Source: a virus
Length of the DNA stretch: 35,403 nt
IMG/VR virus record: IMGVR_UViG_3300045581_000162
Location: 1-35,403 of that record
Direction: 5' to 3' (one strand)
Under the pieces are notes generated by a model. The model worked only from the letters and a program-made list of their open reading frames with translations. It did no database searches and was not told the origin of the DNA. The position numbers and the translations under genes are program-made. Positions 3,210-28,581 of the stretch are shown piece by piece; within the stretch, counting starts at the first letter, position 1; every line of letters begins with the position of its first letter.

Positions 3210-3221
3210 ACAGGAGGCTCT

Positions 3222-9712: not shown

Positions 9713-9720
9713 AAAGGGGG

Positions 9721-9748: not shown

Positions 9749-9783
9749 TGTCAAACATTGGACAAAAAAGAAAGAGGCTACAA

Positions 9784-10346: not shown

Positions 10347-11341
10347 TGAGCAACGTAACCATTTTTAACCCTTCCCAAGCGCCCGCATTCGCTCGTAAAG
10401 GCGAGTTGTCCGATATGGCCAAGGCCCTGGCCGGCGGTGGTGGCGGTGGTAAGCGCATCTCGATCAAGGGCGGTGTGTTCCGTCTTATGAGCGCCGGGAA
10501 AGAAGTGGCAAGCATTGATGACCGCCACCTCAATGTCGTGCTCGTGAAGGCTGCTCCAAAGATCAGCCGCGTTTTCTACATGAAGAGCTACGACTCTGAG
10601 AATGTTGGAGCGCCTGATTGCTGGTCCGCTGACGGCGTGAAGCCGAGCTCTGAAGCTGCGAATCCGCAGCACACGTCGTGTAACGACTGCCCCAAGAACA
10701 TCGCAGGCTCTGGCCAAGGTAACAGCCGCGCTTGCCGCTATCAACAGCGTCTGGCGGTGGTGACTGAGAACGATATGGGCGGTGACGTTTTGCAGTTGGC
10801 GCTGCCTGCTACGTCTATTTTTGGTAAGGCGGAAGGCGATAACCGCCCTCTTCAAGAGTATGCTCGCTATCTCGTGGCGCAAGGGATCAACCCCGAGACT
10901 GTTGTTACGCAGATGCGGTTCGATACCAAGAGCGAGTCGCCTAAGCTGTTCTTCAAAGCTGTGCGTTGGCTGACCGACGATGAGTACGGGATTGTTGAAC
11001 AGCAAGCAGCATCCGAGGAAGCCCTTAAAGCAATCACGATGACTGTTGCTAAGATGGACGGAGTTGGTGCGGCCCCTGTGCTCGAAGGACGCCCGCCTGC
11101 AAAGGCGAAGCCTGCCCCGGTAGCGGTTGTCGAAGAAGATGAGGAAGAGGTTGAAGCTCCCGCTCCTGCGCCCGTAGCAAAGCCCGTTCGCAAGGCTAAG
11201 GCGGCCCCGGTAGTGCAGGAAGTCGCGGAAGATAGCGACGAGATCGACGAGCCTGAAGTTCGTAAAGAGCCGGTCAAGAAGCCCGCTGTGCAGAGCCCGC
11301 CTACGCTGGCTGACATGGTGAGCGACTGGGACGACGAGTGA
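10346..11341 (+). CDS. Probable single-stranded DNA-binding protein with zinc motif and acidic tail, 331 aa
   Basis: ATG at 10346 follows AAGGAGAG. Residues 1-235 form a compact domain with a Gly-rich loop (six glycines at 30-35). Four cysteines, C92, C112, C115 and C130, are spaced C-x19-C-x2-C-x14-C and could hold zinc. Residues 245-331 are a Pro/Ala linker with Glu/Asp blocks that ends SDWDDE, a strongly acidic C-terminus with a terminal aromatic. A zinc-containing core with an acidic tail is the organisation of T4 gp32-like SSBs, whose tail binds replication partners. The gene lies between the helicase and the primase-helicase. The assignment is by architecture, not by direct homology. 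Confidence 0.6.
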   Translation: MSNVTIFNPSQAPAFARKGELSDMAKALAGGGGGGKRISIKGGVFRLMSAGKEVASIDDRHLNVVLVKAAPKISRVFYMKSYDSENVGAPDCWSADGVKPSSEAANPQHTSCNDCPKNIAGSGQGNSRACRYQQRLAVVTENDMGGDVLQLALPATSIFGKAEGDNRPLQEYARYLVAQGINPETVVTQMRFDTKSESPKLFFKAVRWLTDDEYGIVEQQAASEEALKAITMTVAKMDGVGAAPVLEGRPPAKAKPAPVAVVEEDEEEVEAPAPAPVAKPVRKAKAAPVVQEVAEDSDEIDEPEVRKEPVKKPAVQSPPTLADMVSDWDDE

Positions 11342-11346
11342 GTTTA

Positions 11347-11407
11347 GAGGGGGGCCAGACGTAACGCATCTGGTCTTAAAAGCATCGGCGAAAGATCACC
11401 CCTCGCC
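11347..11407 (+). promoter_or_regulatory. Candidate structured leader of the HTH regulator gene
   Basis: The 79-base gap holds a hairpin GGCCAGA (11353-11359) with TCTGGTC (11369-11375), one G-T pair, 9-nt loop. A second hairpin pairs GGCGA (11387-11391) with TCGCC (11403-11407). The loop of the second contains CCCC (11399-11402), which can pair with the GGGG at 11349-11352 just 5' of the first hairpin. The alternative is an outer helix GAGGGG/CCCCTC enclosing hairpin 1. The element ends 13 bases before the start codon, so it could control translation. Confidence 0.4.
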
Positions 11408-11420
11408 ATAGGCAAACACT

Positions 11421-11690
11421 ATGCGAAATAAAAACGACGACACGTTAAACGCAAACTCGCCGCTTGGCGTATGGCTAGTACATCTAGCCGCGCAACATAA
11501 CGTGTCAATCACAAAGATTGCCAGAGCGGTCGGGGCTTCGCGGCAAACGATATACAACTGGGGGCATGGGCGACAAATGCTCTCCGTGTTCCAGCCGCGT
11601 GTTCAAAAGATCGTATCTATACTTAAAAACACCAAACAGGAAGAAGAAGCGTGGAGAAAAATATGTCAAGCATTCGACCTCAGCTTTTGA
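11421..11690 (+). CDS. Small helix-turn-helix transcriptional regulator, 89 aa
   Basis: ATG at 11421 (MRNKNDDTLNAN), with AGG 8 nt upstream. The core is an HTH of the XRE/Cro type: SPLGVWLVHLAAQHNVSITK, then IARAVGASRQTIYNWGHGR, where the second block is the helix-turn-recognition helix. The C-terminal third is a Lys/Glu helix. No ligand or oligomerisation domain is visible. It could repress the early block or the replication genes. There is no opposing regulator or integrase in view to suggest a lysogeny switch. It overlaps the next small gene by 28 bases. Confidence 0.8.
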   Translation: MRNKNDDTLNANSPLGVWLVHLAAQHNVSITKIARAVGASRQTIYNWGHGRQMLSVFQPRVQKIVSILKNTKQEEEAWRKICQAFDLSF

Positions 11691-11824
11691 GCGATGAAGA
11701 GCTTTTGCGCTATTCATGGGTGAACGGCATTGAGCACTTGTCTGCGGAGTGGGTGACCGAGCTTGTGGCTCGGATGGAGAAACTCATTGACGAAAACACG
11801 TCTCTGAAAAAAGTTTCCGACTAA
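11663..11824 (+). CDS. Small acidic protein, 53 aa
   Basis: ATG at 11663 is preceded by GGAG about 7 nt upstream and overlaps the regulator's end. The 53-residue product starts MSSIRPQLLSDEELLRYSW and ends in a short coiled coil (ELVARMEKLIDENTSLKKV). Function unknown. It is placed 21 bases before the primase-helicase gene, whose GAGGGG ribosome-binding site lies in the gap. It is below a 60-codon cutoff but its codon pattern and spacing support a real gene. Confidence 0.6.
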   Translation: MSSIRPQLLSDEELLRYSWVNGIEHLSAEWVTELVARMEKLIDENTSLKKVSD

Positions 11825-11845
11825 TCCACACTGCGAGGGGTCTAC

Positions 11846-14800
11846 ATGAAACCGCTTGAGTTTCTAGCGGAGGTGCTTCCGTCACCCGGAAATGGGCACT
11901 ACTGCATAGCAGCGTTTACAAAAACAAAAAAACACCACTTTTTTACATCGGACTTGGAAAACATCCGTTCGCGTGTGAAGAAGTGGTTATCTGAAAACCG
12001 CGATGTGTACTTCGCACTGGCAACATTCAACGAACCAAAAAGCCGGGAAGCAGCTAACGCGGCGTGGATAAAGTCGATCTTCATCGACATGGATGGCTAC
12101 GAGTCCAAGAAAGCCGCCGCCATCGCGCTCAATACGTTTTTGGAAAAGACCGGTCTGAACGAGTTTGGTACGCCCTACATCGTCAATAGCGGTGGTGGCT
12201 TGCATTGCTATTGGCCCTTCAATGAGCCGGTCGATCCGGTGACCTGGAAGCCTATTGCTGAAAACTTCAAGCGCCTGTGCAAGCAGGAGAACCTCAAGAT
12301 CGACATGACTGTAACGGCAGACGCGGCTCGCGTTCTGCGCATCCCCGGCACGATCAACTACAAGCAGAAATACGAAGCGCCCCGCCCGGTCAAGCTGCTC
12401 TTGGAGGGCACAGCAAAGATCGATGCACGCCGTTTCGGAGCAGCTATTCGTGCGCAGTTGTCAGAGGCATACCAACCCCCGAGCAATGCGTTTGTTCCAA
12501 CCAGTGTCGATCTGCAAGGTGTACGCCCATCCAAAGCCGCAACGCAACGCTCGGCAAACGTCGAGGCGTTGCTGAACAATAGTGAAACGCGGTTTGAGAC
12601 GATATGGATGAAGTCAGAGCGGGGTGTTGGCTGCGCCCAATTGGAGTTCTACCAAAACAACGCGCAGCAAGACGGGATGGAGCCACTCTGGAGAGGGATG
12701 CTGTCTTGGGCAAAAGTCTGCACTGACGGAGATGTGTACGCACAGAAGCTGTCGAAGCTGCACCCGTATACGCCTGAGCGTATGCATCAAAAACTTGCGG
12801 AGATCAAAGGCCCGTACCCGTGCCTGAAGATGGACTCTGAGAACCCCGGCATCTGCCCAAAATGCCCATTCTGGGGAACGATCACCAACGCCCTGGCGCT
12901 GGGTAGAGAGATCGTGACGGACAACCGTGCCAAGGAAATGGTGGTGCCAATCCAAGCCACCTGCGAAGACGCGGCCCCCATTGAGGAATCTGGAGAGCAT
13001 ACGCTGGATGATTTCAATGTGGACGATTCTCGGCCAGAGAATGTCAAGACACGAAAGATTCTGCGCCCGCCCCCTCCAAGGGGGTTCGACTATGGCAAGA
13101 CAGGTGGCGTGTACCGCACCGTGAAGGAAAAAGATGCGACCGGCGTTGAGATCAAAGCTCAGATTCAGATACTCCCGCACGAGCTTTTTGTGGTGGACAT
13201 GTTGCGCCAAGAGCAAGAGCATCAAGTGCACCTGATGGCTATCAAGGCGCTAAGTAAGTCGGGGCTGGGCGGCAGTACGGAGATTGAGCATCAGGCGATC
13301 ATCATGCCTAGTCGCGCCGTGGTGTCTAAGGACGATTTGCTCAAATGCCTAGCATCAAACAACATCTATGCATCTTTTGGGCAGGTGGCGGATAAGCACC
13401 TCTACGACTACGTTCGTGCTTGCGTTGAGAATGCTGCCCAAGAGCGCCGGGTGGTGGACATCCCCATTCAGCTTGGCTGGCAAAAGGATCGCTCGTTCGT
13501 CTACAACAATCGCATTTTCAAGAAAGACGGTGCAGAGATCCCCGTCCCGATGCCTGGGCTGGAGAACATCAACCGCGCAACGAACAGTAAAGGAACACTT
13601 GACGATTGGCGCAAGCCTTGGGAGCTGCTCATTCAAAAGGGAATGCACACCATGTTGGCCGTGTGCATGGATGCTTTCGGTTCTCCGTTGATGCCCTTTA
13701 GCGACCATAAAGGCTTTGTGTGGCACATCGGCTCCACGTCGTCTGGTACGGGTAAATCACTCACGCTCAGTCTCAAAGCTGGCGTCTGGGGGCATCCGAT
13801 CCACTACCGTACCGGAAAAGGCACGTCTTTTGTGGCAATGCAGCAGCGTGCGGGTCTGCTCAACAGCCTGCCCCTGTTAATTGACGAAATCACCAGCAAA
13901 ACCAGAAACGATGTCGAGTGGGCACCAGAGCTTATTTTTGACATCTCGGAAGGCCAAGGTAAAGAGCGTATGGAGGCGGGATCGAACAGGGAGCGGGTGA
14001 ATAACTCGACCTGGGCGCTTACCTGCACGATGACCTCCAACACGCACATGATCGACCTGCTGACCGGAGGCCGCAAACACTCATCACACGGCGAAATGAT
14101 GCGTATGCTGGAGTGGAACCCTGCTAAGGAGCTATCTTTTGAGCAAAGCGACCGTGAGACGCTCAAACTGCTCAGTAAAAATTACGGCGTTGCGGGTGAA
14201 GCCTGGGTTCGCTGGCTGGTCAAGAACTACGAGACTGCCGAGGATGTTTGGCGCAGGGTCCACGAACGTATGCGGACCGAGATCAAATTCAGCGATGAAG
14301 AACGCTATTGGCACGCAGGCTGCACATCTGCTATTGCCGCAGCAATCCTGATCGGTTCTCGGTACGCCAATCTGCTCGACGTGCCAGTCAAGGCGTTGGT
14401 GGACGCGCTACGTGACTTGGTTGAACGTGCTCGGATGGCGCATAAGCGGTCGGTCAGGACGGCAGAGGACATCCTCAACGCCTACACACGCGAGTTCTAT
14501 GGCAAGTTTGTTGTCATTCGGGCCGACGCTGCGGGCCAGCTTATTGCCGACTTGGGCAAGGACTTGCAAGGCAAGACCAGTACCAAAAACACGGTCATGG
14601 GCCGCATCGAGCACGGCATCAGAAACACGAACTATGTGGACTACTTCATCGAAGAAACGCTCCTGCGCCGCCACTGTGCGTCGATGAGCTTCGGATATGA
14701 AGACTTCAAACGGCAGATGGAGGGTATGCAGAAAGCACCGGCAAACTTCGTCATCAAGTACGGTCGCAAGGATCTTTTGGCCAAGACGGATGGGCCTGTG

Positions 14801-14875
14801 ATGCGTGTGCCGGTCATGCACATCAGCATCCCTAAGTCATCGGTAGACGAGAATGGTGAAGTTTCCTTGGGATAG
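11846..14875 (+). CDS. Primase-helicase (AEP primase-like N-terminus, DUF927-type helicase C-terminus), 1009 aa
   Basis: ATG at 11846 follows GAGGGG. The N-terminal third resembles archaeo-eukaryotic primases: FIDMDG with Asp81 and Asp83, SGGGLH ending in His120, a later Asp153, and R165 in ARVLRIPGTINYK. Cysteines 326, 337 and 340 may form part of a zinc site. The C-terminal half is a DUF927-like helicase with GSTSSGTGKS (Walker A, 629-638), LPLLIDE (Walker B, 675-681) and a TGGRKHSSHGEM segment with a likely arginine finger. The pairing gives a self-contained priming and unwinding engine for the phage polymerase upstream. It is the last rightward gene and ends two bases before a terminator hairpin. 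Confidence 0.9.
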   Translation: MKPLEFLAEVLPSPGNGHYCIAAFTKTKKHHFFTSDLENIRSRVKKWLSENRDVYFALATFNEPKSREAANAAWIKSIFIDMDGYESKKAAAIALNTFLEKTGLNEFGTPYIVNSGGGLHCYWPFNEPVDPVTWKPIAENFKRLCKQENLKIDMTVTADAARVLRIPGTINYKQKYEAPRPVKLLLEGTAKIDARRFGAAIRAQLSEAYQPPSNAFVPTSVDLQGVRPSKAATQRSANVEALLNNSETRFETIWMKSERGVGCAQLEFYQNNAQQDGMEPLWRGMLSWAKVCTDGDVYAQKLSKLHPYTPERMHQKLAEIKGPYPCLKMDSENPGICPKCPFWGTITNALALGREIVTDNRAKEMVVPIQATCEDAAPIEESGEHTLDDFNVDDSRPENVKTRKILRPPPPRGFDYGKTGGVYRTVKEKDATGVEIKAQIQILPHELFVVDMLRQEQEHQVHLMAIKALSKSGLGGSTEIEHQAIIMPSRAVVSKDDLLKCLASNNIYASFGQVADKHLYDYVRACVENAAQERRVVDIPIQLGWQKDRSFVYNNRIFKKDGAEIPVPMPGLENINRATNSKGTLDDWRKPWELLIQKGMHTMLAVCMDAFGSPLMPFSDHKGFVWHIGSTSSGTGKSLTLSLKAGVWGHPIHYRTGKGTSFVAMQQRAGLLNSLPLLIDEITSKTRNDVEWAPELIFDISEGQGKERMEAGSNRERVNNSTWALTCTMTSNTHMIDLLTGGRKHSSHGEMMRMLEWNPAKELSFEQSDRETLKLLSKNYGVAGEAWVRWLVKNYETAEDVWRRVHERMRTEIKFSDEERYWHAGCTSAIAAAILIGSRYANLLDVPVKALVDALRDLVERARMAHKRSVRTAEDILNAYTREFYGKFVVIRADAAGQLIADLGKDLQGKTSTKNTVMGRIEHGIRNTNYVDYFIEETLLRRHCASMSFGYEDFKRQMEGMQKAPANFVIKYGRKDLLAKTDGPVMRVPVMHISIPKSSVDENGEVSLG

Positions 14876-14876
14876 G

Positions 14877-14915
14877 GTCGAACCGGGGCAGGGGTTTTTT
14901 GTCCCCTGCCTCGAC
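14877..14915 (+). terminator. Terminator-like hairpin at end of rightward block
   Basis: GGCAGGGG (14887-14894) pairs perfectly with CCCCTGCC (14903-14910). An outer GTCGA/TCGAC helix (14877-14881 with 14911-14915) extends it across a 5-base bulge. The loop is TTTTTTGT; no T run follows the stem on either strand, so this is not a canonical intrinsic terminator. It begins two bases after the primase-helicase stop codon. A second 6-bp hairpin, GCGGCC/GGCCGC with a TCGT loop, lies at 14935-14950. Confidence 0.55.
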
Positions 14916-14962
14916 ACCACAGAGATAAAGCGATGCGGCCTCGTGGCCGCGATGCACCTAGG

Positions 14963-15008
14963 GATAAAAGCCACGGCCCGTATAGGGATCTATAAAGGCC
15001 GCTTTGGC
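14963..15008 (-). terminator. Terminator of the leftward virion operon
   Basis: On the minus strand, just after the stop of the giant gene, GCCA...CGGCC pairs with GGCCGTGGC (9 bp with a 3-nt bulge), with an 18-nt loop, followed by TTTTAT. The plus-strand arms are 14970-14978 and 14997-15008 and the T run is at 14963-14969. It fits an intrinsic terminator of the leftward transcript. Confidence 0.6.
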
Positions 15009-15015
15009 GTCTTCT

Positions 15016-18000
15016 TTATTCGAGATTTTTAGCAATGTCTCGGATGTTTCGAGCCAGTTGAATCTCCAGGCGCTTAATCGCATCAATCTGCCGCTGCTTT
15101 TCTTCGCCCGACAGCTTAGGCGCTGCTGCAATTACACGCTTGAGTTCTGCTAACTCGCCCATCTTCTGCCGGAATGATCCGCCGGTCGAGTTAAGCGCGA
15201 TCTGAGCTGAATACTTGCTGGCAAACTCCGCAGCTTCTGCCGCTCGCCCAGCCTTGACCATATCTCTGTAGCTTTGCGCGGCCTGCTCATACTCTTTAAT
15301 GTCTTTGTAGACCGCATCCAGCGCCCCTCGACCTGTCTCGGGCTGGAACAACGAGCCGATGAACGGCATTTCGCTGAGTTTACGCTCCGGGGCAGACACA
15401 TCTTCAGGTAGTGTGAGGGGGCGCAACGCGAGATTGCTTGCCGACATGAGCGCCATGCCCAGCGTACCGGTGTAGCCACGAACAAGATGCTCGATCTGTA
15501 ACGGCGATGCGCCCGTCGTCGCCCCCAGAAGTTTGGCAAGCTCGGTCGTGTTAGCACGGAAACGGTCTTGAGGGCGAAGGTTTACTTCCCGCGTAGATTC
15601 AATTGGCGCGTCGGTGAAGAAGTTATGGTTTGCGCTCAACTCCACCAGCGGTTTGACCGCAGAGGGGATGCCGATAGGTACAGATGCTTCAAGCTGCTTA
15701 CGAATAACGCCTAGCGCATCTCTTGCCTTGGTATCGCCGAAAGCGGTATTGATGGCCAGTTCGGGCAATGCCTTGAACACAAAACCCAATTCGAACGGAA
15801 TCGGAACGCGAATCGGCTCGTCGCTTCCAGGTGGATAGATGAACCAGTTCATCGCACGTTCTTGCGGGGTGGCGTTTTTGTATGCTTCATCGTCCTGCAT
15901 CATCAGGGCGTAAGCTATAGCCATGCCCGCAATCAACGTCCCGCGCTTGTACAGCTTCTGCGTGATCTGCATACGCTCTTGGAACGGCACGTCTTTTGTG
16001 AAGGCTGCACGATATACCGAGTCCAGACCTTGGATCTGCGCGTTGAAGAACGGGATCATCGTACCCATCCAGTGCAGCGATGCAGAGGTTCCCCGACGTG
16101 AGAAGTTTATAGACTCCGCAGCGGCGAGCACCGACTCCAGGTGGGAGAAGCCTTTTTTGCGGTAGTTGTTGTAGACCGCCGCACGAGTAGCCGTATCCGC
16201 CTTGTGGGCGAACGTATCTAGCATCGCCATGCCTCGCGCCAGACTGTATTTGCCGCTTGTTATAGAGCGCAGAATCCGGGCCTGATCCTCAATATCGCCA
16301 GTCTGCACCATGCTGCTGACCGCCCCCGCACGCTCTAGCGCCTCACCTGCTTGAGTTGGGGCTTTGAGAGACTTAATGAATTCGCGGTACGTGTCGAGAA
16401 CGGCTGAGAAGTCACCGCCTGTAGTCAGATACGCATGGATCGGGTCACGAATCAACTGACGGAACGCATAGACCGGCATCCGGGTGATGCCCTTACGCAG
16501 GAGGCTGACAGGCATCTGCATCGCTCGCACCGCCGTCGGAATCGCCGTTTTGATACCTTGCAACCCCATGACAAATACATCAGCAGGAATGTCGTCCGGG
16601 AATGCGGAAGGGTCTAAGCGCAGGTAATAGTCAACACCTTTGTTTTTAAACCGGGCCACATAGACATCGCGAGGGCCTTCGCCCTTGATAATCTTCCCGA
16701 GGCCCATGTCCTGAACCATGTTTGCCACGTCACGGGTCTGCATGTTTGTCACTGCGCCGCGAAGCAAGAGCGACGTGTTCTGCATCATGCTGGAGTACAG
16801 CGGGAGGATTTTTTCATCGCCGCCGACCAACTCTTTGAGCTGCGGCTGATCGACAACATTACCGATAGTGACCTTGCGGCTGCCCAGCATCAGCTCCACA
16901 GCGCCGTTCTGGACACGGTAGTACGGGATAAAGTCCCCCTTCAGTAACTCGTTTGCCTTCTCACGCGACATTGCGCCCGCCTCAACATAGGTATTCAACA
17001 GGTCTTTGTTGTATTGGCGGTAAAGATCGCGGGCCTCATTAAAGGCGGCTTTAGTTTCCGGATCGCTATCAACGGCAGCTTTAATTTCCGCAGCTTTAGT
17101 CGCATCTAGGAGAGGATTCCCGTCTTTATCCTTGCCGTAATTCAGGCGGTCGTAGCCGATACCCGCTTTTTCTGCACGGAGGATAGCCAGCCAATTTGTG
17201 AACAGGTTTTCCACAAAGGATTCGTTACCGAGCTTGGAGCGGCCCAAAACTTTAGCGATCTGCTGTGCGTTAACCCCGTTCTGGCCTTCAAGAACTTTGA
17301 TTCCTTCTCGTGTGACGAGCTGCGGTACACCTTGCGTAAATGCAAGACTTACTTGGCGGTTCACATCGTTCGTGACGCGCATCAGGAACCGAAGCTGTAG
17401 GGCTTGCGCTTCTGAGACTTTTCCTTTCTCGACACCACGTTTAAGCAGCGCTTCGGACGGGGCCCAGTTATCGGCTAGCCTGGTTCTAAGACGCAGCCCT
17501 GTAACGTTCGCCATGATGCGGTCGCCGATACTCTGTGTTCTTCCGACGAGGCCGTTTACGGTGTTGACCACGCGCTCATTAACGCGATCCGATGCGACGG
17601 CACCTCGGCCTGCGAACACACCTCGCATAGCAGAAGCCATGACTACAGCATCGTTGGTTACGCTGCCTGCTTTTTGTGGAGGCCCGAACAGCGCGAACGC
17701 CTCTTCCATAGACTTGCTAGACAGTCTTTCAGGGTTCATGCCGATCAACTCCATCAAGCCACGAACAATGCGCTGCCACAGCGTCTTGTCAAAGGAGTCG
17801 AGCTTATTACGAAGATTGCTGTTTGTTAGAACTTCAGCGACGAACTCCTTAAGGTCTAGACGCCCGTACTCTCTAGCAAACGCCGGACTATTCTGAATTT
17901 TGCTGAAGGTTGCTTCTAGCCGCAGACGTGCCTCACGTTGAAAAAGCGGGAGGGCGTCAATTGGAACGGTTAACGCCGCATGGGTAACAGAATGCACAAG

Positions 18001-21000
18001 CTCGTGCAGCACAGACTCTTCATTAAGAGAGCCTCGATCCATAATAATCCGGTTGCGCGAAGCATTGAAGTTACCTTCAGTAGGCTGACCGTCCACAACC
18101 AAGTTATCTTTAACCGAGATTTTTGTCTGACGTGTTAAAGATGTTTGCAGCGTCTTGACTGCTTCGGAAAGTGCTCGATGCAACGGATTTTTGCTTTTGG
18201 CCAGCTCGTCAAGCAGCCCCATGACGTTATTGTTTTCCGCTGCATTAGCCGCAGCTTTCGACAACGGCGTCGTAGGGCGCTCTTCAAAGAATACGTTGTT
18301 TGCTCGAAGCTGGACATCAGCATCGGTATCCGTGTCGGACTCGAAGTTTTTGTCTTCAAACAGCTTTGGATTCTCATCCATCGCAGTCTTAGCGTCGGTC
18401 TCTGCCTTGGCGACTTCTTCCGTTGCTAAAGATGTCACTTTACTGTCGGAGGCCGGCCCTCGCACGCCCTCCCAAGAAACAGGGTTTGCAGGCCCCATGC
18501 TGTTCAGAAAATCACGTACCGTCTTATTCGGCAAATATTGCTTACCCGTAACTTCGGATATGAGGCTTTTGATTTTGTCTGCAACGGCCTTGAAAAACTT
18601 TTCAACAATAGAAACAGGTTTTTCTTCTGTAGTGGCCCATCTTGCCGTATTGTCAGCAAACCATTCCGAGAAAGAGTTCCAGTAAGGAGACAGGTCTTTG
18701 CTGGTGAGTTTTTCGAGTCCAACAACCTGCGCTTCTGCAACTTCTTTGCTGCGCATTGACTCTACGTGCTCTATAGCCGACTTTCCTTTGAGGCCAGACA
18801 ACCATTCTGCATGTGCTGCGCGGATCGCGGCTTTAGTTTCTGGAGAAGCTTTATTAAACGCTACACGCTCAACTATGTGCCCAAGCTCGTGCGCAATAAC
18901 TTCTACTGTTACGTTTTCGCTTTTTTTATCGCTTATCTTTAGTGCAAAATCTTTTTTATTTGGTCCAAACGGCTGAACGCGACCGTACTCCTGCGGCACT
19001 TCCTGACTAGTTTGTGCGTTGGCATACTCGCCAAAAAGATTGTATTTTTCACGTCCTTGCGGCCCTTTAACATCGTCCGCATGAAACAGAAATACCCGCA
19101 CATCACCCATTCCTAACGACTGCATTAAGTCATTAAGATAGTGGGCGTATCGAGAGTCAACGCCGTCAGAAGTGGCTACGTTTCTTTTGCTGTTAGTAAA
19201 AGGCCCATCAGGCTTTTCGTTTTGCTTAACTTTTTCTTCAGCAGCAAGCCTATCTGCAACAGACTTTATTTTTTCTTGAACGGCGTTAAATGTGCTTGCG
19301 TAAGGCCTTTCACTAGGCGCTCTAGATGCAGCATTAAACTTATATATGTAGTTACCAGCTTTTATGTAAAAGACGTATATCTGATCCCCAGACAGGTTTA
19401 TACCTCTTGAAAGCACGCCGGTTTTATCAGAGTACACAACCGCTGAACCTGGGTACTGCTTTAAGATATTGTCAACAACCCATTCTGGATGGTCGGCAGG
19501 ATCTTCACTAAAAATGCCTTGTTCTTCCTTCGCCGCAGCTTCTTCAGCTTTGCGGGCAGCTTCAGCCTCTTTAGCTTTGCGTTGCTCTTCAGCTTTGCGT
19601 TGCTCTTCAGCTTTGCGGGAAGCCTCAGCAACCTTTTCAGCCTGCGCACGCGCCGCTTCAGCTTCTTTCTTAGCCGCAGCTTCTTTCGCAGCGTCTTGCT
19701 CCTGTTTTGCTTTTTCTGCTTTGACCCTTGCTTCTTCCGCACGCTGTTCTGCCAATTTTTTAGCGTTTAAAAGATACTCCGCTTTGCGGGCAGCTTCAGC
19801 CTCTTTAGCTTTGCGTTGCTCTTCAGCTTTGCGGGCAGCTTCAGCCTCTTTAGCTTTGCGTTGCTCTTCAGCTTTGCGTTGCTCTTCAGCTTTGCGGGCA
19901 GCTTCAGCCTCTTTAGCTTTGCGTTGCTCTTCAGCTTTGCGTTGCTCTTCAGCTTTGCGTGCAGCCTCAGCCGCTTCAGCCTTGCGTTGCTCTTCAGCCT
20001 GTTCAGTTTTTGGCGCTTCTTCAGTAGCGCGCGCCTCTTTGCGGCGGGCTTTTTCGCGTTCAAAGCCCTCACTTAGCCAATCAGCTTTTCTCTGATAGCG
20101 CGGTTTGTACTCTTGAACAGGTTCTTCGGGGAGCGTCAACCCCAACGACTTGGCCAATGCCAATCGCTTTTCTCTTGTAAGAGGGCTGTCACTTTTAAGC
20201 GCACGGGAGAGCCTTCCAACATCTTGCGCAGCAATCCGACCTTTTGCCATCAAATCCGCAAGCTGCGCATTCAGTTTTTGCTCATACGCTTGAAGCGCGG
20301 CAGCGCCTTGCTCCAGATTGACTTGCGGCTGTGCGCGTTGTGCAACTGCAATCTGGTTCCGCAAACGAACGATGTCATTTGCAGCACGTTTTGCCTTGGC
20401 GCTGTCTTTTTCTTGCTTGGCAGTTTGGAAGCGGTTTTGAGCGCTAGCAAGACGTTTTTCTAGATCCGCGATGTCTGCCTGAGCTGCAAAAGCGGGGATG
20501 CCTTCTTTCTCAAAGGCTGCAGCCTCTTGCGTCGATTCACGCGCCTGGGCTTCTGCAAGCCGGTTTTGTGCGTCGGGGATATTTGCGCGAGTGGCTTCTG
20601 CTTTTTTAGCAGCCTCTTGATAGGCTTCAGGTTCAGTCTCTTTGAACGCCGCGTCGTCTTGGCGCTGCGCGAGCATCTCCAGCTTGCGGATCTCCTCTTG
20701 AATGTCGAACGCGGACTGCGGAGCTTCTTCGACAGGAGCGGGCGCAGGAGCAACGCGCTCAATACCTTCAATCTGGGCTTGCTCGCCGGGTTTCAATTCC
20801 GGCGCAACTGCTGGCTCTGGTGTAGCTACTGGCGCAGGGGCGGGCTCTGCTGGGCGGAGATCAAGACCTGCTTGCCGTTCATCGACAGGCTTTTCGTAAA
20901 GTGACAGCTTTTCATCAACTTTTTGGATGTCCGCCAGCAGTTTGGCGACTTGTGGTTCGGCTTTCGCTTTTTTAGCGTTTTCAAACTTGGTGAGCAGCGA

Positions 21001-22647
21001 ATCGCGCTTGGTTTTAAGTTCGTCTAAGGTGCTGACTCGTCCCCCAAGCCTATTGATTTCACCTTTAAGCCCGACAATCGACTGGTTAATGCTTTGAACT
21101 TGCTTAAAGGCGTCAGCCGTTGCTTGTGGCGCGACGCCGGGCGTCATGGCTGCATCTTTAACTTGTTTAGCGCGAGCAGAAAGGTCATCAAGCTGCTGTT
21201 GCAGTTGGAGCCGCTGGAAGATGCTTTGCTTTTCTTGCTCAACCGGGCTGACGGTAGGCGCTGGTGCAGCCTCAATTTCAGTTTGCACATAGCCCGGTTC
21301 GACGCCAGGAATGCTCATCTGCGTGAACGGACCTTGGCCACCTTGACGCGCCTCTTCTTCAACTCGTTGCTGCTGTGCGCTAGCTGCCTCCGCCGCCTGC
21401 TGTTGCTGTGCGCTAGCTGCCTCCGCAGCCTGTTGTTGCCGACGAGCGGTAATATCTGTCAGTCTTGACCTGTACTCGTCTTTGAGTGGCTTAAAGGTTT
21501 CCAGCGCCGTTTTATGCTTTGCAAGCGCGTCTTCGTATGCAAGATCTTCTTCTGGCGATGCGTCTTTTTTCGGCTTCTTAGGTTTGGGGCTATCAATCAT
21601 CCCCTGTTTGGCAGCTTCAAAATCCGCAATCAGCTTGTCCAGATACTCTGGCTGCGCTTTGCGAGCGGTTTCTTCTTCGGCCAATCGAACACGCTCGGCT
21701 TCTGCTGCAGTGCGTTCTTCCCCGAGCCTAGCTTGCTCAAGTCTGCGACCCTCCGCTTTAATGCCCCCGCGTTCAAACGCACGACCAAACGGGCCAAGCA
21801 CGGCAGTGAGCGCCGCCGCGCCTTGAATGCTTTGAAGATACTCTTGACGCGCCTCGGGGTCTTCGATAGCCAGACCTGCCTGATAACGCTCAATTGCTTG
21901 CTGTGTAGCTTCTGTGAGCATTTCAACAGGCATTACTTTGCCCGTGGCCTTAACGTAGTCGGCAGCAACCTGTTTGACAGTCTGTCTAGCAAGCGCCTGG
22001 GCAGTTTCTTCCGTGACTTGCGCTCCAGCGCGGCCAAGAAGTTTGCCAATCCCCGGCATGACGTACATCGCCGCAGTGTCAAGAAGCGCTTGGGGGACTG
22101 CGGCCCCCGCAGCCTTACCAAGATCTGCCTTCTCAATATCGCCGGTTTCTTCAACCTGCCGACCCAAGTTCGACAGCGTGAACTGCCCGGTGCTGGCAGC
22201 GGTAGCGCCTAAGAAACCAAGACCTGCGGCAACAGGCGCAGATACCGGGAGCGACGCTGCTGCTCCACCTACAACTAGCGGCGCAGCCATCAACGGGAGA
22301 GAACCGCCAAGCGTCTCTTTAAATTTCAACCAAGGAGATGTGCTCCAATCATCCTGGGTAGGCGTAAAGATTTCACGGGAACGCGCTTTAGCAGCTTCGT
22401 AGTCCCGCATGGCTTCTTCGTTGCTCTTCAAGCCGAGCTTGGCTGCGAGAAGACTGGCCTGCCCTTTCGTCTCCTCAATAGTACCCTTAGCTGCGGCCAA
22501 GAAGCCGGAGGTGTCTTGTTTTGGCTTTGTTGGCGCAAACCCGAACGCTTCCGGATATTTCTCAAGTGCAGCGTTCCAAGCGTCTTGAGGAGTCTCCCCT
22601 TCAAGAATTGGAAAAGTTTTACCATTGGGGAGACGGATGAGGGCCAT
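15016..22647 (-). CDS. Giant polyvalent virion protein with two HExxH metallopeptidase-like domains, 2543 aa
   Basis: It starts MALIRLPNGKTFPI. Residues about 100-300 hold hydrophobic Gly/Ala-rich segments likely to cross or insert into membrane. Residues 300-1050 are mostly coiled coil, with repeated KAEEQRKA units at about 880-1035. Domain one has HELGH (1253-1257) and a downstream SEWFAD; domain two has HELVH (1548-1552) and a downstream EFVAEV. Both fit a gluzincin-like HExxH plus Glu arrangement. Later regions include a helical segment (NYGKDKDGN), then MPVYAFRQLIRDP near 2060 and EPIRVPIPFELGF near 2270, resembling the LPD38 domain of polyvalent phage proteins. Such proteins are packaged and injected, and can act on host targets. 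It is the last gene of the leftward operon. Confidence 0.85.
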   Translation of the reverse strand: MALIRLPNGKTFPILEGETPQDAWNAALEKYPEAFGFAPTKPKQDTSGFLAAAKGTIEETKGQASLLAAKLGLKSNEEAMRDYEAAKARSREIFTPTQDDWSTSPWLKFKETLGGSLPLMAAPLVVGGAAASLPVSAPVAAGLGFLGATAASTGQFTLSNLGRQVEETGDIEKADLGKAAGAAVPQALLDTAAMYVMPGIGKLLGRAGAQVTEETAQALARQTVKQVAADYVKATGKVMPVEMLTEATQQAIERYQAGLAIEDPEARQEYLQSIQGAAALTAVLGPFGRAFERGGIKAEGRRLEQARLGEERTAAEAERVRLAEEETARKAQPEYLDKLIADFEAAKQGMIDSPKPKKPKKDASPEEDLAYEDALAKHKTALETFKPLKDEYRSRLTDITARRQQQAAEAASAQQQQAAEAASAQQQRVEEEARQGGQGPFTQMSIPGVEPGYVQTEIEAAPAPTVSPVEQEKQSIFQRLQLQQQLDDLSARAKQVKDAAMTPGVAPQATADAFKQVQSINQSIVGLKGEINRLGGRVSTLDELKTKRDSLLTKFENAKKAKAEPQVAKLLADIQKVDEKLSLYEKPVDERQAGLDLRPAEPAPAPVATPEPAVAPELKPGEQAQIEGIERVAPAPAPVEEAPQSAFDIQEEIRKLEMLAQRQDDAAFKETEPEAYQEAAKKAEATRANIPDAQNRLAEAQARESTQEAAAFEKEGIPAFAAQADIADLEKRLASAQNRFQTAKQEKDSAKAKRAANDIVRLRNQIAVAQRAQPQVNLEQGAAALQAYEQKLNAQLADLMAKGRIAAQDVGRLSRALKSDSPLTREKRLALAKSLGLTLPEEPVQEYKPRYQRKADWLSEGFEREKARRKEARATEEAPKTEQAEEQRKAEAAEAARKAEEQRKAEEQRKAKEAEAARKAEEQRKAEEQRKAKEAEAARKAEEQRKAKEAEAARKAEYLLNAKKLAEQRAEEARVKAEKAKQEQDAAKEAAAKKEAEAARAQAEKVAEASRKAEEQRKAEEQRKAKEAEAARKAEEAAAKEEQGIFSEDPADHPEWVVDNILKQYPGSAVVYSDKTGVLSRGINLSGDQIYVFYIKAGNYIYKFNAASRAPSERPYASTFNAVQEKIKSVADRLAAEEKVKQNEKPDGPFTNSKRNVATSDGVDSRYAHYLNDLMQSLGMGDVRVFLFHADDVKGPQGREKYNLFGEYANAQTSQEVPQEYGRVQPFGPNKKDFALKISDKKSENVTVEVIAHELGHIVERVAFNKASPETKAAIRAAHAEWLSGLKGKSAIEHVESMRSKEVAEAQVVGLEKLTSKDLSPYWNSFSEWFADNTARWATTEEKPVSIVEKFFKAVADKIKSLISEVTGKQYLPNKTVRDFLNSMGPANPVSWEGVRGPASDSKVTSLATEEVAKAETDAKTAMDENPKLFEDKNFESDTDTDADVQLRANNVFFEERPTTPLSKAAANAAENNNVMGLLDELAKSKNPLHRALSEAVKTLQTSLTRQTKISVKDNLVVDGQPTEGNFNASRNRIIMDRGSLNEESVLHELVHSVTHAALTVPIDALPLFQREARLRLEATFSKIQNSPAFAREYGRLDLKEFVAEVLTNSNLRNKLDSFDKTLWQRIVRGLMELIGMNPERLSSKSMEEAFALFGPPQKAGSVTNDAVVMASAMRGVFAGRGAVASDRVNERVVNTVNGLVGRTQSIGDRIMANVTGLRLRTRLADNWAPSEALLKRGVEKGKVSEAQALQLRFLMRVTNDVNRQVSLAFTQGVPQLVTREGIKVLEGQNGVNAQQIAKVLGRSKLGNESFVENLFTNWLAILRAEKAGIGYDRLNYGKDKDGNPLLDATKAAEIKAAVDSDPETKAAFNEARDLYRQYNKDLLNTYVEAGAMSREKANELLKGDFIPYYRVQNGAVELMLGSRKVTIGNVVDQPQLKELVGGDEKILPLYSSMMQNTSLLLRGAVTNMQTRDVANMVQDMGLGKIIKGEGPRDVYVARFKNKGVDYYLRLDPSAFPDDIPADVFVMGLQGIKTAIPTAVRAMQMPVSLLRKGITRMPVYAFRQLIRDPIHAYLTTGGDFSAVLDTYREFIKSLKAPTQAGEALERAGAVSSMVQTGDIEDQARILRSITSGKYSLARGMAMLDTFAHKADTATRAAVYNNYRKKGFSHLESVLAAAESINFSRRGTSASLHWMGTMIPFFNAQIQGLDSVYRAAFTKDVPFQERMQITQKLYKRGTLIAGMAIAYALMMQDDEAYKNATPQERAMNWFIYPPGSDEPIRVPIPFELGFVFKALPELAINTAFGDTKARDALGVIRKQLEASVPIGIPSAVKPLVELSANHNFFTDAPIESTREVNLRPQDRFRANTTELAKLLGATTGASPLQIEHLVRGYTGTLGMALMSASNLALRPLTLPEDVSAPERKLSEMPFIGSLFQPETGRGALDAVYKDIKEYEQAAQSYRDMVKAGRAAEAAEFASKYSAQIALNSTGGSFRQKMGELAELKRVIAAAPKLSGEEKQRQIDAIKRLEIQLARNIRDIAKNLE
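19543..20000. repeat. Coding tandem repeats for KAEEQRKA coiled coil
   Basis: Two tracts (about 19543-19625 and 19780-20000) repeat 18-base and 45-base units built from GCTTTGCG, TTGCTCTTCA and CAGCTTCAGCCTC blocks. They encode, on the minus strand, alternating KAEEQRKA and KEAEAARKAEEQ sequences. The tracts are separated by non-repeated coiled-coil coding sequence. The composition resembles the helical domain II of TolA. Near-identical units make this tract prone to copy-number change and assembly error. Confidence 0.85.
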
Positions 22648-22668: not shown

Positions 22669-22697
22669 AAAAAACGCCTCACTGCTGGAGGCGTTTT
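22669..22697 (-). terminator. Strong intrinsic terminator upstream of the giant gene
   Basis: AAAACGCCTC (22671-22680) and GAGGCGTTTT (22688-22697) form a 10-bp stem with a 7-nt loop. On the minus strand the stem is followed by a run of six T (22669-22674). It lies between the stop of the 578-residue gene and the start of the giant gene, so the giant gene must be reached by read-through or by its own promoter. Confidence 0.85.
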
Positions 22698-22701: not shown

Positions 22702-24438
22702 TTAGCGTCCTAAGTCCGCTTGTGCAGCCGTCCCAGGAATTACAGTATCTGTTGATGGACCTCTCGATGCCGCAAGCATTTTGTTATATTCTGCAACAAG
22801 CTGTGCATTAGACAACACCGCGTTTTGAGGCAGCTTGGCAAAGTCCTCAAGGGTCATAATCGGTTTAGCCGCCGCCGCGCCGCCGCGCACCCCCGCCGCA
22901 AACCTACTTGCATCAACCTGCATTTGTGTCATCTTTAAACGGGCAGCGTTATCCTGCTCATTCATGTAGATGGCCGCAGCAGTCTGTTTGTCTACGTTTC
23001 TTGCTTTAGCAATTGCGTCAATTGCTGCGGCGTTCATCCTGTCTACATTACCCTGTAACTGCTGATTGTAGGATTCGAGTGCGTCGTAGTCTTTGCGCCC
23101 CTCTGCACGCTCCATTCTGGCAAGTGCTGCGAGACCGGCCTTACGTTCTTTCTCGGCCTTCTTGAGATCGCCCTGAGCCTTGGAGTACTGGCCTGCGCCA
23201 GCAGATACGCCCTCGACAATCGACTGCAACGTGCTTTTACCGGGCTGGATAACGTTGGATGCGAATGTGAGCCACGCCAGCCCTTCATTCATGCGCTGCT
23301 GCTTCTCGGTCTCGGCCTTGTCTTCAGCCAAAAGGGCTTTTTCTTCCGCAAAAGTTTCAGGCCCTGGACGGCCTTTTTTGTATTCCTCAAAGCGTCTGCT
23401 GGCCTTTTCTTCTTCCGCTTTTATCTTCTCTGCGTAGAAGTCCTCGGTATCTTTCGTCGTGCTGAAATCCTCCGCAGTGCTAGTCGGACGCGGAGCACCG
23501 CCAGAGGGCATACCTAGTGGTGCGCCCGCACCACTTCTAGCGGCGTCAAGCACTTCGCGAGGCATAAGTTGTTCGATACCGGGGCCTCTAGCCTGCGGTG
23601 CGGGCACGGGCTGTGCGGGCACCGACGGTGCTGTTTTAGCAGCCGGGGCAGCGGCAGTCGGCGTACCTTTAAAGCTGGGGAACATCTCAAACTCAGGACG
23701 GTTCCCCGGAGTTCCGGCACGAGGAACGACAGGCTTACCCGCAGCAGCATTGATAAGCGCGGCGTACTTATCCATGCCCGTCATAGCGCCACGATAAGGG
23801 GCGGTGGCAATATCCCCAATAAAACTTCCCACTTTCCCAGCCACTGCACGAACAGGGCGATAGATCCCACGCAGTGCTTTTCTAGCCTCTGCAATCTCAG
23901 CGGCCTCCGCTTCTGTGGGGGCCTCACCGGCTCGTTCCGCCTCAAGCTGCGCACGCATACGCTCTTCTTGAGAACCGCCCTCACCGCTAGCCATCCCCTG
24001 CACCCATTGCGGGTAGTCGTAAGGCGTTGGGACACCACCGCGATTCTGAAAGCGGACCGCTCCGCCATCAGCGTAGCTGACCATCTCTTCCCCGTTATCG
24101 CCAAGCACAGGCGCGTACCCGTACTCGTCCAGGCTACCGCCGCCAGCAAACGCTACAAGACCGCCATCAGCAAACTGCATCTCAGGATTCAGCGCACCAA
24201 TACCCTGATCTTCGGGCAACTGTTGCGGCTGCATTGCAGCAAGGGCTTGCTGGTTTACGGGAGGTTGTGGGGTTTGTGCTTGCGCCTGCCCCTTCATCCG
24301 AAGCTGTTTACGGGTATTGCTCTCGTTAAACGCCAACGGAAACATGTAGGGGTCTTGCTTGTGCATCTCAGCAAAACGCTGTAATTCAGCGTCGCTCATC
24401 ATGCGCAGACGGGACGTGATTTGATTAGCGTCGATCAC
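22702..24438 (-). CDS. Putative internal or minor virion protein with ADGG motifs, 578 aa
   Basis: ATG at 24438 overlaps the upstream stop (ATGA). The N-terminus is helical (MIDANQITSRLRMMSDAELQ). Two Gly motifs follow, FADGGLV at 89-95 and YADGGAV at 122-128, plus a nearby run of three glycines. The middle is Pro/Ala-rich low-complexity sequence. The C-terminal half is coiled coil (EEKASRRFEEYKK, QRMNEGLAW, KAEKERKAGLAALARM). Proteins with ADGG motifs and this composition recur among structural proteins of aquatic phages, without assigned function. It lies directly upstream of the terminator and the giant gene. Confidence 0.7.
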   Translation of the reverse strand: MIDANQITSRLRMMSDAELQRFAEMHKQDPYMFPLAFNESNTRKQLRMKGQAQAQTPQPPVNQQALAAMQPQQLPEDQGIGALNPEMQFADGGLVAFAGGGSLDEYGYAPVLGDNGEEMVSYADGGAVRFQNRGGVPTPYDYPQWVQGMASGEGGSQEERMRAQLEAERAGEAPTEAEAAEIAEARKALRGIYRPVRAVAGKVGSFIGDIATAPYRGAMTGMDKYAALINAAAGKPVVPRAGTPGNRPEFEMFPSFKGTPTAAAPAAKTAPSVPAQPVPAPQARGPGIEQLMPREVLDAARSGAGAPLGMPSGGAPRPTSTAEDFSTTKDTEDFYAEKIKAEEEKASRRFEEYKKGRPGPETFAEEKALLAEDKAETEKQQRMNEGLAWLTFASNVIQPGKSTLQSIVEGVSAGAGQYSKAQGDLKKAEKERKAGLAALARMERAEGRKDYDALESYNQQLQGNVDRMNAAAIDAIAKARNVDKQTAAAIYMNEQDNAARLKMTQMQVDASRFAAGVRGGAAAAKPIMTLEDFAKLPQNAVLSNAQLVAEYNKMLAASRGPSTDTVIPGTAAQADLGR

Positions 24439-25613
24439 TTTGACTCCTTCATACGTGCCAAGGCGAGGTCTTGCAGCCCAGCAGCTTTAACGCGACCACC
24501 TTTTTTCATACCGGCAATCTTACTGACACCATACGCAGCTCCGCCAAGAGCCGCAAGATTCTGCATCGGAGACGGAGCGGGCGAATACATCGTGCGAGAC
24601 GTGCCTTGTGCACCGCGCAAAATATCGGAGATGAATCCGAGCTGCTGATACGGGTAGTTCCGCTGGGCCATAAAGTCAGAATACTGCTGCCCCAGGATGT
24701 TCTGGACTTGCGCTTGCTGCTGCGCACCCATTGCAGCCTTCTGGCCGAGAATGTCAGATTCCTGAGCAAACTGTTGCTGTCCCAGTGCTCCGAGCTGTTG
24801 TGCGCCCTGCAAAGCCGTTTGAGCGCCTTGAAGGTTGGCTCCGAACCCGTACTGGCGTGACTGCTCCGCCATTCTCTGGGCTTCGAGCGCGGCTTGTTGA
24901 TTCTGTTGCTGCGCCTGCATCATGGCTTGAAGGCCGCTCTGACCAGCAGAAAGTCCCGTTTGCTGATTCATTTGCTGCGCTTGCAGAGCGCGAGCCTGAT
25001 CCTGCATGAACGCTTCCCGGCCCGTAGAGAAAGCTGACTGCAGCCCCTGCGCCTGGATGTCGCCCTTTTGCATTGCCAGATTACGCGCAGCCTCGGCATC
25101 CATGATGGCCTGCCTAGAACCGCCGAATGCACCAGCGCCAACAGCTTGAGCCCCGCGCTGAGTACGAGCAATATCCGCCTGCCGCTGCGCTTCTCGCTGC
25201 TGGATGTCTACGACATTCTGCATGTATGGCGACATGTACGCCTGAGCTGCGCCAGGAGCCGTAAACGCCTGCGTCCCAACTCGCTCGTAGCCAATCTGGC
25301 CTGGAGTGATCTGTGGTGCCGTAAATGCAGATGGGTTGTATTGCTGCCCCATGCCTTGCAATGCGGCAGCCTGCGCAATTTGTGATGCTGCCCCTAACTG
25401 CGGCGTAGCTTGTCGCTGCTGTGCCCCAGCAAACGCTTGTTGCTGAAGCGGGGTAAACTGGGCGATCCGCTCGCCGGTATAGGGCTGATAGGGAGCCTGC
25501 GTAATAGCGCCAGCTTGCCCAATAAGCTTCTCAAAATAAGGGGCTGCGTATTCAGGGATATTCGTCTGATACGCAACTGTTTGTCCACTGCCGCTGGAAC
25601 CGCCACCGCTCAT
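24435..25613 (-). CDS. Gln/Ala-rich putative virion protein, 392 aa
   Basis: ATG at 25613 overlaps the upstream stop. It begins with a flexible MSGGGSSGSGQT tail, then IPEYAAPYFEKLIGQAG and PYTGERIAQFTPLQQQAF. This is a conserved-looking N-terminal block seen in virion proteins of aquatic phages. Residues 60-300 are dominated by Gln and Ala in helical patterns (for example QQNQQAALEAQRMAEQS). The C-terminus has a Tyr-rich hinge (YSDFMAQRNYPYQQLG) and ends with KKGGRVKAAGLQDL, a Gly-Gly motif like those in its neighbours. Probably an ejection or adaptor protein; this is inferred from operon position. Confidence 0.7.
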   Translation of the reverse strand: MSGGGSSGSGQTVAYQTNIPEYAAPYFEKLIGQAGAITQAPYQPYTGERIAQFTPLQQQAFAGAQQRQATPQLGAASQIAQAAALQGMGQQYNPSAFTAPQITPGQIGYERVGTQAFTAPGAAQAYMSPYMQNVVDIQQREAQRQADIARTQRGAQAVGAGAFGGSRQAIMDAEAARNLAMQKGDIQAQGLQSAFSTGREAFMQDQARALQAQQMNQQTGLSAGQSGLQAMMQAQQQNQQAALEAQRMAEQSRQYGFGANLQGAQTALQGAQQLGALGQQQFAQESDILGQKAAMGAQQQAQVQNILGQQYSDFMAQRNYPYQQLGFISDILRGAQGTSRTMYSPAPSPMQNLAALGGAAYGVSKIAGMKKGGRVKAAGLQDLALARMKESK

Positions 25614-26016: not shown

Positions 26017-28581
26017 CTATACCAATTTATGGGGGTTCACTTGTCGCTGTTGGGACTTCTTCCCGTGTGCATTGTGCCGAATCTTGTCCAACATAGCGTA
26101 GAACTTCTTCGATCCGCCATATTTTTTAACGTCTTCAGGCGAAATATACGCTTCACCGCGAGCAACACGGGCTTTTTGTTTGCCCTCAATCGTAGTGGGA
26201 ATAGAGTCGCTCATGCCGTCGCCAGGACCATCAATCGGCTTGGCGTTGAACTTTCTCATCAACACTTCGAGTCCAGCATCGGTGCTGCCATTACCCAGCG
26301 CGGAAACTACGTCGGCAGGAACAACAAACCCGCCACTACGAAGACCTCCGCCTGCGGCATAGCCGGGTGATTTAGGCGCAGTAACCCACCGCGCCTCATC
26401 TATATAACGGCCATCCGGCTGAAGTACCCGTTGAGATACGACCTTACCGCCCGCAGCAATCTCTGCAGGAGTCCACGAGCCTGACGAAACAGGGGCAGGA
26501 GCTGGAGCCGGAGCAGACATAGACGCAGCGCCTGTGTAGGGAACCCATCTACTAATAGTCCCGCCTTCATTTCCCCAAGGAACTTCCACACGCCTACCGC
26601 CAGCGGCAATTTCTTCAGGTGTCCACGCACCATTTGCGCTGGGAGCTGGAGCTGGCCTAGGTGCAGGTGTCGGTGCGGGTGTCGGTGCGGGTGTCGGTGC
26701 GGGTGTCGGTGCAGGTGTCGGTGCAGGTGTCGGTGCAGGTGTCGGTGCAGGCGTACCATACGCTTGCTTTAAGTAATCCTCTACCTGCTGCGTGCTGTAC
26801 CCGGTGGCCTCAGCAAGACGTGCGTTACTAACGCCGAACTGCCCCGCCGCCCTATTGATTTCTGCCGCGCGTTGAATATCCGTGAGCCCTTCATTTTTTA
26901 GGATTTTGTCCACATAGTTCTTGATCTCCTCATTCGAATACTGCTGCTGTTGTGGAGCAGGTGCAGGGGTCGGTGAAGGCGTCGGTGCAGGGGTCGGTGA
27001 AGGCGTCGGTGCAGGGGTCGGTGAAGGCGTCGGTGCAGGGGCGGGGACTTTAGGAGCAGGAACCCACCGCTTGTTTTCTGTAGCATCCGACCCTTCGTAG
27101 TACGTTTCGTAGTACCCGCCAGCGGAAATCTCGGCGGGTGTCCACGTTCTGCCAGTTGCTGGGTCAACGTAGTTGCCGCCCGGTGCAGGAGCAGGAGAAA
27201 CGGGCGTGCCGCCAATTGCGCTTGTGCCCGCCGTGGTAATCGGTTGCGTTACCTTCTCCGCCGTAGTCGTCGGCGCCCCATAGAGATAGCGGAAGGCATC
27301 AGCACTTGCACCCGTCATACCGCCAACTGGCGCGATACCGCCTTGCATCGGGCCTAGAAACGACTGAATAAACGGCATGTCGTACCCGGAAGCCTTTGCT
27401 AATTGCTCACGAGTGACGCCGTACTCTTGGGCCGTTTTGTCAATCAATGCGCCGCGCTGGGGGTAATTTAAGTCTGTCATCCCCATCACAGTCTGCACAT
27501 AGTCTTTTATGCGCTGGGGTTCGACGTTAGCCGGCAGAGTGCTGCCGTACTGCGTAGGCAGACTCATCAAACCTTGAGGAGGCGGAGCCGCAGGGGGGTT
27601 GGCGGCGGGGGCTGCAACAAAAGGCTGTGCCGCCAATCCCATCAAGCCGGTCGGCTGTTGGGAAATTACCGGGTTGTAGCTAATTTGTGGAGCAGGCGTA
27701 ACTTCACCACCTTCTGCCAGCTTGCGATAGGTCGGCGCAAAGTAGCGGCGCTCGCCCGTATAGCTTGACGATGTTGGCTCGCCATCGGTATAGCCTGGAA
27801 TGTATTCGTACTCGCCACCTTCGCCCGAATAGCGTCGGCGCGTAGTAATTTCTGGCTCCATCATGGTCAGTGGTGCCGCCGCCATCATCGCCGGGCTCAA
27901 CAGTTTTCCAAACCCACCAGCACCCTTAACAAACTCTCCCGGCTTTTGAAACGCAGCTTCTAGCGACTGTCCAAACGTAGGTTTAACCGGAGGGGTGTGC
28001 GCCCCAGCAGGCCAGAATTCAGTCTCCATAGGAGCCTGCATAGACTCCGCCACCGTCGGAGCGACGGGCTGCGTAACCGCTACAGGGGGTACAACAGGCT
28101 GAGGCAGAGGCTGCCCAGCCCATACTTCTGGACTAACGGTTTCAAGCCCAGTGGTCGCCATAGGCGTAGAACCGGCTGCGGCTGCACCTTCGGCTGCGGC
28201 AGCACTAGACGCAGCATTCAGCCCCGATCCGATGTTAGCGGCCAAACTAGCGCCGCCATACGCGCCCAATCCGCCCATCAAGGCACCCATCAGAGGGTTC
28301 TGCCGGTTAGTCAACGCCCCAACGCCTGCCCCAACCCCCGCAGCTAACAAGCCACTTCCCGGCAGAATGAAGTTCATACCGACGCCAACCAGCGTGGGGA
28401 GGATGCTTTTCAAAAACCCGGCTTCAGGCAAACCAGTTTCAGGATTCACCGTAAGGCTGCCGCCATGCGCTTTAGCCAAAGCTTGAAGTCCGTGCACCTC
28501 GCCGGGGGTCATGTGGACAAGCAGTGTGTCCTCCCCGCGCCCTTTGGATGCCAGATGCGATGCGACTTTTTCAAGGCTCAT
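26017..28581 (-). CDS. Modular Pro/Ala-rich virion protein, 854 aa
   Basis: The start ATG (28581) has GAGG 6 nt upstream. N-terminal part: [19 protein letters not shown], followed by a long hydrophobic Gly/Ala segment (about 55-130) that may insert into membrane. Two related helical domains occur at about 357-410 ([12 protein letters not shown]) and 551-608 ([14 protein letters not shown]). Three WTPxEIxAGG...RWV modules occur at about 477-511, 650-683 and 698-738. Pro-Thr/Ala-Pro linkers connect them. The C-terminus has [10 protein letters not shown] and [11 protein letters not shown] (785-795), a pattern common in virion proteins of aquatic phages. Probable ejection or tail-interior protein. 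Confidence 0.75.
26666..26750. repeat. 12-bp tandem repeat encoding Pro-Thr-Pro-Ala
   Basis: Seven copies of a 12-base unit GGTGTCGGTGCR encode, on the minus strand, alternating Pro-Thr-Pro-Ala residues. It forms an extended linker inside the 854-residue virion protein, between the second helical domain and the second WTP module. Confidence 0.85.
26961..27041. repeat. 24-bp tandem repeat encoding Pro/Thr/Ser linker
   Basis: Three copies of a 24-base unit (GTGCAGGGGTCGGTGAAGGC plus GTCG) followed by a partial copy encode Pro-Thr-Pro-Ser-Pro-Thr-Pro-Ala linkers in the 854-residue protein. It is a separate expansion from the repeat at 26666-26750, with a longer period and Ser instead of Ala. 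Confidence 0.8.

Follow-up and report, generated by a model that had tools for sequence, protein, structure and literature searches.

A giant LPD38 phage protein with two metallopeptidase domains of different clades

A giant protein encoded on a viral DNA stretch of 35,403 bases (IMG/VR virus record IMGVR_UViG_3300045581_000162, in the following called the window, which may be an incomplete genome) combines two separate predicted metallopeptidase domains, z1 and z2, with a C-terminal LPD38 domain, as indicated by conserved zincin motifs, the distinct clades of the two domains and the LPD38 match. The open reading frame (ORF; 15016..22647; all window features given here lie on the minus strand) encodes 2543 amino acids (aa) uninterrupted by a stop and is the last gene of the virion operon. 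We consider it fairly probable that the giant belongs to the LPD38 class of polyvalent proteins and functions in ejection in a short-tailed-type phage, with a resident z2 that acts on the giant or its partners and a gained M78-like z1 that adds a second cleavage. The giant is a new member of an already described class, the phage polyvalent proteins, which contain between one and five zincin-like metallopeptidase (MPTase) domains and for which the HExxxH form has been reported as well (Iyer et al., 2017; PMC5512222). One of its protease domains, z2, is standard in phage injection proteins, and the other, z1, has apparently been added from another phage lineage.

The motifs named in a preliminary description of the sequence are exactly in place, with HELGH at residues 1253-1257 (18877..18891) and SEWFAD at 1327-1332 (18652..18669) in z1, and HELVH at 1548-1552 (17992..18006) and EFVAEV at 1601-1606 (17830..17847) in z2. 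As only one of 5000 residue shuffles of the giant gave two HExxH motifs (60 gave one; 0.012 expected per protein), the pair is beyond chance. In agreement with the two metallopeptidase-like domains of that description, the models of both predict the strand and helix order of a zincin core, in which the HExxH helix is followed further on by a helix bearing the acidic motif. The two HExxH domains adjoin each other, which might suggest an internal duplication or fortuitous motifs; this is highly improbable, as the clades and the conserved motifs differ, each domain has its own relatives and shuffles rarely give two HExxH. Duplication was rejected, since hhalign reached 33% over just 40 columns, around HExxH only.

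The domain z2 (residues 1438-1663; 17659..18336) falls into a clade known from ejection proteins. H1548, E1549, H1552, E1601 and F1602 are invariant over 23 aligned rows, with Glu1601 as the likely third ligand, and the model (pLDDT 80-90) shows strands at 70-74, 86-89 and 94-98, the HExxH helix at 104-120 and the glutamate helix at 160-169 (model numbering). The z2 profile matches gp65 of phage phi14:2 (2e-21), the virion RNA polymerases of N4, phiCB2047-B and Vibrio phage phi 1 (1e-7) and a giant of a Helicobacter pullorum prophage; gp65 is also found by tblastn (E 2e-5), hhalign of z2 against an alignment of the N4-type domains reached 99.2% (E 2e-19), and the virion RNA polymerase family phrog_2206 lies over z2 (E 4e-7). 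Further matches are gp41 of phikF77, a 1337-aa protein annotated as internal virion protein (E 2e-14), the equally long 'internal virion protein' of PDB 9sfn (E 4e-6) and 23sg gp10 (5e-4), the latter two with HExxH present. Cumulatively, these similarities argue that z2 belongs to an N4-type ejection metallopeptidase clade comprising domains of N4, phi14:2, Vibrio phage phi 1 and phiKMV-like phages. A description of the link between z2 and the solved phiKMV-like internal virion protein was not found in a non-exhaustive literature check, and a literature search for crAss-like phages with a zincin or metalloprotease yielded nothing. The fold search with a long low-confidence model of z2 plus the core, which returned no independent PDB fold match for z2, was uninformative because the core model was poor. 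The partial virion RNA polymerase of Vibrio phage phi 1 (L126) contains an HELIH and an HELVH domain, both matching the z2 profile.

The second protease, z1 (residues 1133-1420; 18388..19251), carries the signature HExGH plus ExxAD, which appears gluzincin-like. In an alignment of 37 rows (36 relatives aligned) H1253, E1254, G1256, H1257, Y1322, E1328 and A1331 are invariant and D1332 is conserved to 97%, with Glu1328 as the likely third ligand. In the AlphaFold model (mean pLDDT 79.5, with about 90-97 in the core), HELGH lies on a helix of residues 1244-1262 and SEWFAD on a helix of residues 1326-1340, with strands before. Foldseek against the viral models of BFVD retrieved a polyvalent protein (E 1.6e-12) and, more weakly, SprT-like, IrrE, M34 and M48 folds, and PDB folds gave weak matches only (E >= 0.08), several of them to zincins such as lethal-factor-type domains, M61 and IrrE. 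The Pfam family Peptidase_M78 is matched at E<=0.1 by 16 of the 37 z1 members (best 7e-6), though not by the domain of the window itself. These results suggest an M78-like clade different from that of z2. Matches of z1 to Leucurolysin-A and ribosomal L4 were judged to reflect chance or general zincin resemblance.

A query of viral contigs with the single z1 sequence returned no relative. The giants of Microcystis phage Mae-Yong1326-1 and Vibrio phage VS-ABTNL-3 align weakly with z1, and a query with their alignment retrieved 40 z1 loci, with up to 52% identity; where readable as whole ORFs, the proteins that contain z1 are giants of roughly 1,800-2,800 aa. One of the proteins retrieved via z1 (L112) has z1 followed by z2, as in the window, and two (L084, L086) have z1 as the sole recognised zincin, directly before the same core as in the window giant. 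In another z1 giant (L094) one in-frame stop, either a sequencing error or a real split, separates the z1 part (2-1439) from the core part (1442-4442), while the near relative L093 is intact.

The conserved helical core occupies residues 1696-2541 (15025..17562) and contains LPD38 (Pfam PF18857, residues 2253-2430, 15358..15891), the sole Pfam match in the giant (E 2.5e-35; 122.7 bits against a gathering cut-off of 27), which bears out the LPD38-like end proposed before. Conservation of the C-terminal approximately 845 aa extends over about 80 viral contigs, and the relatives are mostly metagenomic; a pattern scan of bacterial genomes for prophage relatives of the giant found none. For a zincin census, 48 non-redundant relatives sharing the core were taken from a whole-protein search, the patterns of which were spread over several parts of the giant, including two that fall within the core and one (YWNSFSEW) that falls within z1; the z1 giants retrieved by z1 were left out of this count. 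An HExxH or HExxxH motif precedes the core in 47 of the 48, the last one (L007) starting at a contig end, and after shuffling of the upstream sequences the near-core interval contained a motif in 0.17% of cases. The distance to the core is usually 80-320 aa, with the motif further upstream, and other sequence in between, in 15 of 58. The 47 comprise 27 zincins of the z2 clade, 17 of an HExxxH clade (z3), one combination of z2 and z3 and two members with HEVGxH that were not assigned to a clade. On the core tree, z2 requires 11 changes (at least nine being forced by well-supported branches) and z3 eight (at least six). In one relative (L072, ORF 9433-16906) the tree run labelled an HELGH at residue 1474 as z3 and not z1, with one motif residue apparently lost; the HExxH and HExxxH forms may thus interconvert by single deletion.

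Distant isolates with the core show the same association, as D274, PTXU04, phiARM81mr, CF418P1, Pag-Yong1 and Vibrio phage 1.183.O, which infect proteobacteria or cyanobacteria, all six have an upstream zincin motif. Helicase, methylase and ddrB-ParB domains are present in D274, phiARM81mr and 1.183.O, but none was recognised in the window giant. On the other hand, Bacillus phage poppyseed (L134, 5809-10848), with a Gram-positive host, has an LPD38 core and no HExxH or HExxxH at all; the zincin may go with Gram-negative hosts. There is about an even chance, in our estimate, that a protease is always required on the N-terminal side of the LPD38 core but can be exchanged, at least one zincin out of at least three clades (z2, z3 and the HExGH clade of z1) being sufficient, with the clades replaced many times and tandem pairs representing intermediates or two-step proteases of the ejection machine. 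A near-obligate but exchangeable zincin accompanying the LPD38 core was not found described in the literature, in a check that was not exhaustive. That the zincin folds are structural, holding zinc or aiding encapsidation while cutting nothing, is a doubtful alternative, as the catalytic glutamate does not vary in any aligned row of z1 or z2 and as independent clades with complete catalytic motifs swap, which a scaffold would not need.

With respect to the origin of the pair, the core tree joins the window with L003 and then with L002 (100/100). Since both sisters carry z2 only, z1 was probably gained in the lineage of the window, and gain is the simplest reading of this tree. The relatives of z1, with identities of up to 52%, sit in other giants, consistent with gain. 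The z1 giants form a separate clade on the core tree. A lineage-specific domain that resembles M78/IrrE-type peptidases, some of which cut regulators, could reflect a division of labour of the kind proposed in the preliminary description: z2 would be responsible for processing the giant or proteins of the virion, and z1 would be injected as an effector to cleave a protein of the host, such as one of defence or regulation. We regard this as unlikely, if somewhat less so than a structural role, because the two giants with z1 as the sole recognised zincin right before the same core indicate that the role of resident protease can also fall to z1.

The position of the gene bears on the ejection part of the proposal. 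The giant closes the virion operon, directly preceded by the gene for a 578-aa virion-operon protein (22702..24438), and a DNA ejection protein homologue (phrog_4287; 392 aa; 24435..25613) is encoded upstream. The ejection protein is found upstream of the giant in 56 of 69 loci and a convergent primase gene downstream in 53 of 69; gp50 of N4 likewise comes last in a late operon, downstream of gp51 and gp52. In purified virions of phage JC1, the LPD38 giant gp69 has been identified by 51 unique peptides (PMC9144972), and the annotation of phi14:2 gp65 derives from MS/MS proteomics. By analogy, and from gene order, the giant is probably carried in the phage head and delivered into the bacterial cell. 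Of the injected multi-effector protein envisaged in the preliminary description, injection is thus well supported, while the multi-effector part is not borne out, as no enzymatic domain beyond the zincins was recognised in the giant with Pfam, PHROGs and NCBIfam. Besides two unknown C-terminal families, PHROGs returned the virion RNA polymerase family phrog_2206, which covers the second zincin only (residues 1516-1647), and Pfam gave no match to a T7-like RNA polymerase domain; an RNA polymerase payload was accordingly rejected. Where polyvalent proteins combine disparate enzymatic activities, the giant shows two domains of one activity class.

In the proposed mechanism, the giant would be packaged inside the head and leave it together with the DNA or ahead of it. 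Its hydrophobic N-terminal region and a long, flexible linker region would lead into the two zinc metallopeptidases, followed by the helical core. Residues 113-151 (22195..22311) form Ala/Gly-rich segments, moderately hydrophobic at 113-131 and 133-151 (mean Kyte-Doolittle about 1.5), which makes the N-terminal membrane segments suggested earlier plausible though unproven, and low-complexity AEEQRKAKEAEAARKAEE repeats at residues about 870-1050 (19498..20040) are linker-like. As resident protease, z2, of the clade common to N4 C1, the crAss-like gp65 and the phiKMV-like internal virion protein, may cut the giant or partner ejection proteins at maturation, during passage or after entry and could, for example, free modules. 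Presumably acquired by recombination from a related giant lineage, z1 would provide a further cleavage, either of the giant or of a protein of the host. As nearly all relatives keep a zincin while its clade can change, the need for proteolysis seems inherent to the giant rather than tied to one specialised host target, and the near-obligate presence of the zincin favours a role on the phage's own ejection proteins. For an extra job, z1 is the better candidate and could act on own or host proteins.

Several observations weigh against the proposed mechanism. The virion RNA polymerase of N4, which contains a domain of the z2 kind, is packaged without being processed (PMC5512222), and the PDB lists the phiKMV-like protein at its full length, HExxH included, so z2 need not self-cleave before packaging. 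As a paper on N4 notes, HExxH also occurs in radical SAM enzymes (PMC12633501), and the motif might have a structural role or support a different chemistry.

Few aspects of infection are as poorly understood as the giant proteins that phages inject. One shared protease clade ties the LPD38 giants to ejection proteins of N4, crAss-like and phiKMV-like phages, and a protease nearly always accompanies the core while its kind changes. The targets and timing of ejection-protein metalloproteases become testable by single-residue changes in phages with laboratory hosts.

Among known systems, the polyvalent proteins share with the window a giant phage protein near late genes, LPD38 and MPTase domains (PMC5512222), but in the window giant the peptidases alone are recognisable, with two separately descended clades in tandem before the LPD38 core. 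The virion RNA polymerase gp50 of N4 has a C1 HExxH domain (2124-2375) homologous to z2 and a helical C2. Both proteins possess, in the same order, a likely membrane-spanning N-terminal part, a low-complexity linker, an HExxH domain and a large helical C-terminus, but the window giant lacks the polymerase and has two HExxH motifs instead of one. The core shows no detectable sequence or fold match to N4 C2, and homology of the two was rejected. The phiKMV-like internal virion protein (phikF77 gp41 and the PDB 9sfn chain, both 1337 aa) has the z2 domain with HEAVH ... KELVAWGLT, but gp41 is half the length of the window giant and matches neither the LPD38 core nor z1. In the crAss-like Cellulophaga phage phi14:2, the z2 homologue gp65 is an RNA polymerase associated protein which, unlike the window giant, has 1421 aa and is encoded beside the virion RNA polymerase gene. 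The DarB-like gp69 of Burkholderia phage JC1 is a giant with C-terminal LPD38 that is present in virions and whose gene closes the virion module, but it comprises 4515 aa and includes transglycosylase-like, methylase and helicase-type domains (PMC9144972). Finally, Mae-Yong1326-1 (UUJ74515.1) and VS-ABTNL-3 (PVS_24) have the z1 domain in a giant of the late-gene module, the former with a second HExxH (HEWAH) too, but neither giant matches the core or z2 of the window.

Between the gene of the 578-aa protein and the ATG of the giant, a terminator-like hairpin at 22669-22697 consists of a perfect 10-bp stem, a 7-base loop and a T-run (AAAACGCCTC CAGCAGT GAGGCGTTTTTT) and may reduce the dose of the giant; a search for such hairpins upstream of 80 relatives gave one weaker candidate only. 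Elsewhere in the window, an 854-aa virion-operon protein with PAPTPAPTP repeats (26017-28581) has 12/24-bp tandem repeats in its gene at 26660-26751 and 26960-27041, and a 363-aa protein (34280-35371) consists mostly of a 141-bp (47-aa) repeat present in about 5.7 copies with 80% match (FSPDGAAIAVGH...TAYPWSGSGFGTKFANPATLP), which is propeller-like.
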